Source: Planctomycetales bacterium
GTDB lineage: Bacteria > Planctomycetota > Planctomycetia > Pirellulales > Lacipirellulaceae
Direction of reading: 5' to 3'
Assembly: GCA_020427145.1 (NCBI GenBank)
Contig: JAGQOU010000136.1
Coordinates: 1 to 64,000, forward strand
DNA length: 64,000 nt
Numbering within the stretch: position 1 is the first letter of the stretch; every line of letters starts with the position of its first letter. Positions 1 to 17,870 of this stretch are shown piece by piece. Below the pieces are notes generated by a model, which saw nothing but the letters and a program-made list of their open reading frames with translations, searched no databases and was not told the origin of the DNA. The translations under genes were made by a program, and so were the position numbers.

Positions 1-2
1 GC

Positions 3-692
3 AGGGTGGCTGGGGACGAGCGAAGCGAGCCCCCAGTGAATCGGCGAGCGCCCGAGGCTTCCGGTCCGCTGGGCCGTTGGGAAACCGACGAGACGACGCT
101 CGCGCTGCGTTACTTCCCGGCCGGTCACGCCGATGTGCTGCTGAAAGATTGGCTCGACGCCTTCGCCGCCGCCGCTACCGGCGCACACGCCAACGTCGCC
201 GACCCGCTGCTGCGCGATCTGGTCAAGCCGACCGCCCCCGGCCAATGCGGCATGTGCCACAGCCTGCAGCGCGAGCCCCGCGGCGAGTTGGCCATGCAAT
301 GGCTCGCGCGCACCAACGCCACATCTGCCGGGGCGCCTGGGGACGACCAACGGGAGCCCCCAGCGGCAGCGGACCCCAGCGTCGCTCCACTGGGGGCTCG
401 CTCCGCTCGTCCCCAGCCACCCAGCGCGAATCATGAACTGACTAGCGTCGCGCCACGGGTGGCACTCACGCACTTCGCCCACGGCCCGCACCTCACGCAA
501 CCGCAACTGGCCGATTGCGCCAGCTGCCACCGCATCGCCGCGGGCGCCGACGTGATGACCACCTACGCCCACGACCAGCCCGAGGCGTTTACCCCCGGCT
601 TCGAGTCGCTCCAAAAGTCCGAGTGCGCCGCCTGCCACCGCCCCCAAGCCGCCGGCGACAGCTGCACGCAATGCCATCGGTATCACCCCTGA
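3..692 (+). CDS. Multiheme cytochrome c, C-terminal part (5' end outside window)
   Basis: The reading frame is open from the window edge, so the true start lies upstream; the GTG at 6 sits inside a repeat and is an unlikely start. Four CXXCH haem-binding motifs are visible, at nucleotides 246-260, 516-530, 624-638 and 663-677, which marks a periplasmic or surface electron-transfer cytochrome. The protein ends just after the last motif. Two palindromic repeat units (4-38 and 336-421) are translated in frame as Pro/Gly/Arg-rich stretches such as GDDQREPP and LGARSARPQPP, and the second separates haem motifs 1 and 2. Electron donor and acceptor cannot be told from this fragment. It may be functionally related to the five-haem cytochrome at 6511-9429. 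Confidence 0.8.
   Translation, partial: RVAGDERSEPPVNRRAPEASGPLGRWETDETTLALRYFPAGHADVLLKDWLDAFAAAATGAHANVADPLLRDLVKPTAPGQCGMCHSLQREPRGELAMQWLARTNATSAGAPGDDQREPPAAADPSVAPLGARSARPQPPSANHELTSVAPRVALTHFAHGPHLTQPQLADCASCHRIAAGADVMTTYAHDQPEAFTPGFESLQKSECAACHRPQAAGDSCTQCHRYHP
4..38. repeat. Short palindromic repeat type R1, copy 1
   Basis: A unit of about 33 bp, GGTGGCTGGGGACGAG followed by CGAAGCGAGCCCCCAG. The ends CTGGGG and CCCCAG can pair. Related units lie at 336-421, 3153-3185 and 17838-17870. This copy is inside the coding frame of the partial cytochrome. Confidence 0.75.
336..421. repeat. R1 repeat, inverted pair inside a cytochrome gene
   Basis: A forward unit (336-363) and an inverted unit (388-421) face each other across about 24 bp, giving a potential long hairpin. 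The whole pair has a length and phase compatible with the cytochrome frame and adds no stop codon. The forward unit has the CGACCAACGGGAGC core seen in copies 3 and 4; the inverted unit has the CGAGCGGAGCGAGC-like core of copy 1. Confidence 0.75.
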
Positions 693-2567: not shown

Positions 2568-2933
2568 TCAGGGAGTTCGCAGGATCTTTTCCATCTTGCG
2601 TCCTTTGGCAAGCTCGTCGACCAGTTTGTCCAGGTACCTGACCTGTCGAGTCAGCGGCGTTTTGATGTCTTCGATTCGATAACCGCAAATCGTGCCAGTG
2701 ATCAGGCTCGCATGGGGATTGAGCGTGGCCTCGGCAAAAAACTGTTCCAGCGTCGCGTCTTGGTCGATGAGCTTCTGCAGTTTCTGCGAGCTAAATCCCG
2801 TGAGCCAGGTGATCACCTGGTGCAGTTCCTCGGTGGTTCGCCCCTTCTTCTCAACCTTGGCAACATAGTGAGGATAGACCGCGGCAAAAGTCAGCTTGGC
2901 GACGCGATCGTCGTGTTCTTTCGTGGTACTCAT
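2568..2933 (-). CDS. DUF2200 domain-containing protein
   Basis: A 121-residue protein that matches the DUF2200 family over its whole length: VYPHYVAKVEKKGRTTEELHQ, a VITWLTGF segment, then TICGYRIEDIKTPL and the conserved end RYLDKLVDELAKG. The start is the ATG at 2933, which has GAGGAAG eight bases upstream; the longer open frame back to 3212 only reads intergenic sequence with an R1 repeat. It is cytosolic, of unknown biochemical function. The gene stands alone, followed on the minus strand by the R2 repeat. Confidence 0.88.
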   Translation of the reverse strand: MSTTKEHDDRVAKLTFAAVYPHYVAKVEKKGRTTEELHQVITWLTGFSSQKLQKLIDQDATLEQFFAEATLNPHASLITGTICGYRIEDIKTPLTRQVRYLDKLVDELAKGRKMEKILRTP

Positions 2934-3490
2934 TTCGGCTTCCTCGCTACCGAAGGGGCCATGGTTGATGGTCAGGAACTGCAATCGAATAACGTAAACC
3001 GGCCGGGCGCCCGGCCTCAATGCTCGGATTTTGCCTTCGCCGGATTTTGGTGGAAAATGAGCCAGCGCATCGGGTAAAACGAATGCAGGCTGCCGCGCCG
3101 CTGGGCGGTGCGTCGTGCTGCCGCTTGGTTCCACAACGGGGCGCTCACGAAGGGGTGGCTGGGGACGACCAACGGGAGCCCCCAGGGCAGCGGAACCTCG
3201 CTCGGAGATCACCGCCGGCTGATACGGCGCTACGTCGGTCGCCGCCCCCGCGATGTTGCCGACGGCATCGCGACCCGGCGGCGGCCGCGAGTTTTGCTCA
3301 GTGCCCGTGAGTTTTGTTTGCAGAAAGGAGGGTCGCGGTCAGAGGGCGTTTCACGCAAGTCGTGTAGCGGCAGGTGGTTCGGGCGAAGTTCGCCTTGGCG
3401 CTGCCTGGGGTTTTGCTCGAAGAATTTAATATTTCTGCACCGGTGCAAAAGAGGACGTTGGAACACAGCCCAGCTGGCCGGGCGCGTGGC
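2934..3490. other. Intergenic region without a recognisable gene
   Basis: This stretch separates DUF2200 from the YdeI gene. It contains one R1 repeat (3153-3185) and an AT-richer patch near 3405-3445 that could carry a promoter. Several open frames cross it on both strands, but none resembles a protein family and their composition is that of GC-rich noncoding sequence. Confidence 0.5.
3153..3185. repeat. R1 repeat, copy 3
   Basis: GGGTGGCTGGGGACGACC plus AACGGGAGCCCCCAG, a single forward unit in an intergenic region. It matches the unit at 336-363 almost exactly. Confidence 0.75.
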
Positions 3491-4138
3491 CTAGCGGTGG
3501 CTCTTGTGCGAGCCGTCGCAGGCGGGCGGCTTGCGAGTGAGTCCGCAGGTGCAGTCGTGCATGCCCTTGCCGGCGAGGATTTGCGGAATGAACTTTTCAA
3601 TCCGGGACGTCCGCGTCGTGGATTGCTTGGCCGCCGAGAAATGCATGAGATAGGCGCGCTGTCGTCCCGGGGTGAGGGCGTCGAACGCCCTCTTCAGCGC
3701 CGCGGACTCCGCGAACTTCGCGAGCAGTTCCTCCGGCAACTCGGGCGCCCGAGCCTCGTGCGGTTCGACCTTCAAGCCGGCTCGCTCCACGTCGATCGCT
3801 TCGCGAAGGTAGGCTTTCAGCGTGGGCGCCAACTTGGCGATCTCGCGCACGTCGGTGAATTTCGCCACCCGCGCCGCCTGCGTGTTCTCGCCCGGCTTGA
3901 CCAGCACGCCTTGGGCGTCCTTGAGCAGGGCGCCCTTGAAGATACTCAGCCCGCAGTAGTCCTTAAACGCGGCGATCATCGCCACGTTGCGACCGTCGTG
4001 CGTGTAACAGGGGGCGCGCCACTTCAGCTCCTCGGTCAGATCGCACGCGAGGACGATCGCCCGCAACGCCCGCAGCTCGTCCCGCCACCGCTTGGCGTTG
4101 TTGAAGTAGGGGTCAACCTGGGGATTCGTCTGGCTCAT
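3491..4138 (-). CDS. YdeI/OmdA-family protein with CDGSH-type tail
   Basis: A 215-residue protein. Residues about 10-115 form a DUF1801-like domain (WRDELRALRAIVLACDLTEE, then LKWRAPCYTHDGRN and LSIFKGALLKD). Residues about 120-192 are the bacteriocin-protection/OmdA-like YdeI domain, ending in LTPGRQRAYLMHFSAAKQ. The tail at residues 196-211 reads CTCGLTRKPPACDGSH, which fits the CDGSH iron-sulfur signature C-x-C-x2-T-x3-P-x-C-D-G-S-H exactly (Cys196, Cys198, Cys207, His211). YdeI proteins commonly carry such a short tail, while a lone tail without the full CDGSH fold may bind a metal weakly or not at all. The exact role is unknown. It is a single gene with its start at the first ATG. Confidence 0.85.
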   Translation of the reverse strand: MSQTNPQVDPYFNNAKRWRDELRALRAIVLACDLTEELKWRAPCYTHDGRNVAMIAAFKDYCGLSIFKGALLKDAQGVLVKPGENTQAARVAKFTDVREIAKLAPTLKAYLREAIDVERAGLKVEPHEARAPELPEELLAKFAESAALKRAFDALTPGRQRAYLMHFSAAKQSTTRTSRIEKFIPQILAGKGMHDCTCGLTRKPPACDGSHKSHR

Positions 4139-17837: not shown

Positions 17838-17870
17838 GGGTGGCTGGAGACGACCAACGGGAGCCCCCAG
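17838..17870. repeat. R1 repeat, copy 4
   Basis: GGGTGGCTGGAGACGACC plus AACGGGAGCCCCCAG, one base different from copy 3. It lies in the 297-bp spacer upstream of the GH13 lipoprotein gene; nothing else was recognised in that spacer. Confidence 0.75.

Follow-up and report, generated by a model that had tools for sequence, protein, structure and literature searches.

A REP-type repeat family of a Planctomycetales bacterium occurs in frame within a multiheme cytochrome gene and other genes

REP (repetitive extragenic palindrome) sequences are defined by a GTAG or GTGG foot located 0 to 2 nt 5′ of a hairpin (PMC6006769). Although mostly intergenic, REPs that are read in frame within genes are known in several bacteria, including the Verrucomicrobia example O. 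terrae, and the palindromic elements of Rickettsia (RPEs) are the classical in-frame case (PMC3733652). In-frame REP insertions also occur in tnpA-REP genes of subclass 2.4, where they leave the reading frame undisturbed and, according to the authors, lie at the periphery of the protein (PMC6006769).

Here, we describe a repeat family in the draft genome of a Planctomycetales bacterium (Pirellulales, Lacipirellulaceae; GCA_020427145.1; 5.86 Mb, 567 contigs, 72% complete). The window, i.e., the whole stretch of DNA that was analyzed, comprises 64,000 nucleotides (contig JAGQOU010000136.1, positions 1 to 64,000). Judged by its sequence, we classify the repeat as a REP/REPIN family and not as an RPE, because it has a REP foot and lacks the CGTC tag of RPEs.

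The repeat family and its copies in a multiheme cytochrome gene

The repeat unit is a hairpin of approximately 27 nt (CTGGGG...CCCCAG), directly preceded by a GTGG foot in most copies. In nearly all copies, it is bordered by an outer flank that reads GGGTGGC or differs slightly from this sequence; copy 2a has a degenerate foot (GCGC). GGGTGGC was considered as a novel foot tag, an idea that was dropped, as the published GTAG or GTGG definition fits (PMC6006769). The basal stem extends for 6 bp to the first mismatch, one below the 7-bp minimum of the RNAMotif descriptor used in the same study (PMC6006769). In the genome itself, one hairpin type had 99 matches and the other had 113, against 0 to 3 for reversed-pattern controls. 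Read in context, 193 hairpins resolved into 131 elements. Of these, 62 are doublets (61 of them inverted), and the remainder are single hairpins. As such, the family combines a GTGG foot at the hairpin with a high copy number, mainly outside genes, as expected of REPs, while each inverted REP pair forms one long hairpin, as expected of REPINs.

Two spacings dominate among the doublets, 24 to 26 nt (type A, to which the cytochrome doublet belongs) and 7 to 8 nt (type B). Doublets of type B lie within longer, inverted outer arms (ACCGTTT...AAACGGTATCAC). At L092, L099, L103, and other loci, these arms read ACCGTTT...AAACGGTATCACTACC and the flanks are mostly non-coding-like, and nested type B doublets with arms GTGATNCCATTTGC...GCAAATGGTATCAC were seen at loci L148 to L187 of a genome of the same genus (G001); a type B doublet plus its outer arms makes up a larger composite element. 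Some genomes of the same family (G001, G007, G013, and G022) have hairpin variants of their own.

The window contained 2 to 5 matches to the repeat, where 0 to 0.01 were expected by chance (Table 1). Its doublet folds, as DNA, at −29.1 kcal/mol (z −3.0), and it alone stands out, as single hairpins folded no better than shuffled sequences; the foot is mostly unpaired in single-hairpin folds. The elements are rather stop-poor, with 5.10 open frames of 6, compared to 4.65 for shuffled sequences and 4.26 for the flanks. The copy upstream of the DUF2200 gene is spanned by an ORF at 2568–3212 (−), but was not counted as intragenic, as the DUF2200 domain starts only at residue 103 of this over-long ORF, well after the copy. 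Elsewhere in the window, a second inverted hairpin doublet is present at 1901–1999 and 2405–2503, in copies that are 95% identical, with outer feet of the GGGCGCC/GGGTGCC type and hairpins ATGGCCACG and CATGCCCAC. The latter hairpin has 8 genome matches, one of them beside a fragment of a gene for a REP-associated tyrosine transposase (RAYT, or TnpA-REP; contig C3). This repeat was rejected as a member of the family: its hairpin is different, its foot is of a similar type, and its genome matches number 8. Additionally, DUF1801 and OmdA occur together in a single ORF at 3491–4138 (−), which ends in a CDGSH-like zinc finger segment that scores below its Pfam cut-off.

Table 1. Coordinates of the cytochrome gene, its heme motifs, and the repeat copies in the window
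Feature	Position	Strand	Remarks
C-terminal part of multiheme c-type cytochrome gene	3..692	+	Stop codon 690-692; 28 orthologs aligned
REP copy 1	4..36	+	Foot GGGTGGC (GTGG 6-9); hairpin 10-36 (CTGGGGACGAGCGAAGCGAGCCCCCAG); in frame; at contig break
CXXCH heme motif 1 (CGMCH)	246..260	+	C, C, H invariant in 29 sequences
REP copy 2a	331..363	+	Degenerate foot GGGCGCC; hairpin 337-363, CCAACGG loop type; in frame; absent from orthologs
Spacer, 26 nt, between inverted hairpins 2a and 2b	364..389	+	Within one of the two common spacing classes (24-26 nt)
REP copy 2b	390..422	-	Foot GGGTGGC 416-422; hairpin 390-416, GCGGAGC loop type; inverted partner, REPIN-like doublet with 2a
CXXCH heme motif 2 (CASCH)	516..530	+	C, C, H invariant in 29 sequences; insert lies between motifs 1 and 2
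CXXCH heme motif 3 (CAACH)	624..638	+	C, C, H invariant
CXXCH heme motif 4 (CTQCH)	663..677	+	C, C, H invariant
REP copy, single hairpin	3153..3185	+	Core 3160-3185; intergenic, upstream of DUF2200 gene
REP copy, single hairpin, one mismatch	17838..17870	+	Core 17845-17870; flanks not coding-like

Orthologs of the ORF at 3–692 were found in 30 of the 44 genomes of the family. Across the window sequence and 28 aligned orthologs, the residues C82/C85/H86, C172/C175/H176, C208/C211/H212, and C221/C224/H225 are invariant. While the score for Pfam Cytochrome_C7 (24.0 bits) is slightly below the cut-off of 24.8, the conserved CXXCH motifs and the like architecture of the orthologs identify the product, at the sequence level, as a multiheme c-type cytochrome. 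The original prediction placed copy 1 and the inverted pair inside this frame, which is indeed open throughout copy 1 and both hairpins of the pair (repeat cores at 11–36 (+), 338–363 (+), and 390–415 (−)). Ortholog matches are split at query residues ~105 and ~153, and about 40 alignment columns near residues 110 to 150 are filled only by the window among the 29 sequences; 32 of the window residues in these columns come from the doublet at 331–422. None of the 28 orthologs contains this insert, and all retain the CXXCH motifs. Because the pair columns are unique to the window and the CXXCH residues are invariant, we conclude from the alignment that the spacing of heme motifs 1 and 2 is truly enlarged by the insert, which bears out the proposal that the second insertion pushed two heme motifs apart. 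The insert would probably form an exposed loop. A target-site footprint could not be read at this insertion, as the nearest ortholog is only ~60% identical.

The window starts with base 1 of contig C7, so that the ORF begins at a contig end. A 5′ part of the cytochrome gene is found on another contig of the draft (G000:C332:72-1166:-), with 64% identity to the ortholog in G001. The end of C332 overlaps exactly with window positions 1–25, within the repeat, and the frame continues across it (...EPRANGRVAGDER / RVAGDERSEPPVNRRAPEASGPLG...), so that copy 1 (4–36) is in frame as well. The join of the two contigs is thus likely, based on gene continuity and a 25-nt overlap that lies within a repeat. 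As both parts match adjacent segments of one ortholog, we take both insertions to be in frame; the contig break falls at the repeat. In the cytochrome ortholog of another relative (G006, locus L050), a different linker of the protein contains another repeat-like peptide (SPLPNPPQQGEGILGEGS), likewise in frame, possibly by independent insertion of an unrelated repeat.

In-frame elements in other genes

Elements were called intragenic when the ORF on either side of them had codon use of the coding type, with genes called by codon use and homology. In this draft genome, 12 of the 126 scorable elements (~10%) lie within genes and in frame: the one in the cytochrome gene and 11 others. The copies outside the cytochrome had originally been taken to be intergenic, which holds for most of them, but not for these 11. 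Besides the cytochrome, the genes with an in-frame element encode UbiE/MenG, MnmE, PrmC, MutS, BioA, RlmKL, ValRS, KdtA, GluQ-RS, a CPBP-type membrane protein (a weak family match), and one unassigned protein. A further element, L334, was taken off the list, as it probably lies in a 5′ leader. In relatives, similar cases were found in FlhF of G007, which scores above its NCBIfam cut-off, and in a long ORF of G001.

Among the elements with coding flanks on one strand, no frame-breaking insertion was found, and all 10 to 11 keep the frame without a stop codon. By our own arithmetic, ten of ten in frame has a probability of ~2e-5 if the insert length is random modulo 3. The lengths of the doublets modulo 3 are mixed, so the retention of the frame points to selection acting after insertion. 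The frame in which the element is read differs by gene, yielding GDDQREPP, LGTQRS, GDAAQRSPQG, or ALGAALRSVPSHP, which argues against one selected peptide. The GDDQREPP-type peptide highlighted in the original prediction is indeed encoded in the cytochrome, but is merely one of several readings.

The inserts were placed structurally by alignment to solved homologs. For PrmC, MutS, BioA, ValRS, the GluRS type, the UbiE type, and, most weakly, MnmE, solved homologs without the insert align on both sides of it. In ValRS, query residues 168 and 207, which flank the insert, meet residues 603 and 604 of the PDB chain. RlmKL scores 641.7 with its insert, compared to a family cut-off of 466. The partial KdtA protein is matched by KdtA models, but with scores below their cut-offs. 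The ValRS gene (L069), along with its REP doublet, contains a second, different palindrome-like segment in frame, of ~129 nt, coding for LAPLPRGERLGEG...SLRGRGEP; the first 28 nt of this segment had no match elsewhere among the fetched loci.

Association with RAYT genes in related genomes

In G007, a RAYT gene is flanked on both sides by a near-identical hairpin with the GGGTGGC feet pointing outward. With 89.4 bits, its product exceeds the NCBIfam NF047646 cut-off of 80, and it contains the HUH and Y motifs (DHVH and YIHLNPV). Doublets with a like foot type and lineage-specific hairpins lie on both sides of four orthologous RAYT genes (in G012, G017, G004, and G006). More broadly, among 75 related RAYT loci with enough flanking sequence, mostly from Planctomycetota, inverted flanking arms were present at 65, and 51 of these 65 had a GTGSC/GGGSC motif near the outer end, a count made without a shuffled control. 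The foot at the 75 loci reads GTGG or GTGC. The GTGC foot (GTGCCAC or GTGCCAT), seen in place of GTGG at many planctomycete RAYT loci, among them L268, L271, L374, L387, and L392, falls outside the published GT[AG]G definition.

A profile search of the 72% complete genome detected no intact RAYT of this clade, nor was one found in G001. A RAYT remnant of 57 residues is present (C3:9057–9227); it adjoins a different repeat and is unlinked to the hairpin studied here. Three distant Y1-transposase genes of the genome were rejected, as they lack such a repeat. From the arrangement in the relatives, it is likely that the repeat was mobilized by a RAYT.

Alternative readings and comparison with known systems

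We put the probability at roughly 85% that the repeat represents a REP/REPIN family that RAYTs have probably spread and that is tolerated in loops and linkers. RAYT, an HUH nuclease, would recognize REP units as single-stranded hairpins and copy or move them, and the repeat would have spread in this Pirellulales lineage chiefly into intergenic sites. A minority would have inserted into genes, where selection would have retained the copies that lie in surface loops or flexible linkers, keep the frame by their length, and contain no stop codon. The cytochrome would carry two such tolerated insertions, and the decorated proteins would presumably function normally.

An assignment to the RPEs, as dedicated selfish elements specialized for protein genes and adding functional peptide loops, would account for the in-frame copies in housekeeping genes, some of which fall into classes already represented among published cases (aminoacyl-tRNA synthetases and DNA repair; PMC3733652), and for the openness of the elements in 5.1 of 6 frames. 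However, just ~10% of the elements lie in genes, and their reading frame varies between these genes. Additionally, the foot is GTGG without a CGTC tag at the unpaired end, the string CGTC occurring only inside the stem-loop, and a RAYT of G007 has a near-identical hairpin on both sides, whereas no transposase is linked to CGTC/RPE repeats (PMC3733652). We consider this assignment improbable; the resemblance to rickettsial elements that was originally noted stands as a functional analogy, not as an identity.

Even less probable is that we are looking at a cytochrome pseudogene in decay, or at a chimera of the assembly, whose frame the repeats leave open by chance. The draft does consist of 567 contigs with copy 1 at a contig end, and a stop-poor element breaks frames less often than random DNA would. 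Still, neither contig part shows a break in the frame, identity to the G001 ortholog is 58–66%, and codon use is of the coding type on either side; all heme motifs are kept, and the same pattern recurs in about eleven other genes, none of them frame-shifted. Derivation from another transposon, as MITEs defined by GGGTGGC terminal inverted repeats or by the longer outer arms, is equally improbable. One subtype, the doublet of 75 to 77 nt, is nested in such arms, and a similar arrangement is dominant in G001, but the arms are missing from the intragenic subtype, single hairpins and other spacings are common, and the RAYT of G007 lies between copies of the hairpin whose feet point outward.

Going beyond the REP/REPIN reading, a planctomycete-centered RAYT clade with GTG(G/C)-foot REPs might keep seeding in-frame peptides into essential proteins, some of which became functional linkers or loops. 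We regard this as unlikely; if true, the REP system would be a source of protein innovation. The cases reported here are well-documented RAYT-type repeats in mostly housekeeping proteins, with the frame kept, in a phylum with few REP studies. Relatives with a matching RAYT, together with insert-free orthologs, make the gain of protein segments driven by RAYTs, and its importance, testable. The cases also serve as a warning, as such repeats split contigs within genes and place repeat-encoded peptides in protein databases. A limited literature search found no publication on this planctomycete repeat, which is no proof of absence.

With the canonical REP/REPIN-RAYT systems of the GT[AG]G-foot family (PMC6006769, PMC3116915, PMC2817692), the repeat shares a GTGG foot by a GC-rich hairpin, a high copy number, a mostly intergenic location, inverted doublets, and a hairpin flanking a RAYT, here in a relative. 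It differs in that an intact cognate RAYT was not found in its own, 72% complete genome, in that the planctomycete RAYT clade has GTGC besides GTGG feet, and in that ~10% of the elements lie in frame in genes. The intragenic GTAG/CGTC REPs described by Di Nocera et al. in 2013 (PMC3733652) are likewise head-to-head dimers in frame in conserved genes, including those for tRNA synthetases and DNA repair; here, the host belongs to the Pirellulales, the foot is GTGG, and the gene set is different. RPEs have in common with this repeat that a palindromic element is translated within conserved genes, but they have a CGTC tag, Rickettsiales hosts, and no association with a transposase. Finally, the insertions of subclass 2.4 affect the transposase itself, whereas those reported here are in unrelated host genes. 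To these systems, our analysis adds a planctomycete REP family for which relatives contain linked RAYTs, together with a documented list of genes, most of them housekeeping, that carry the insertions.
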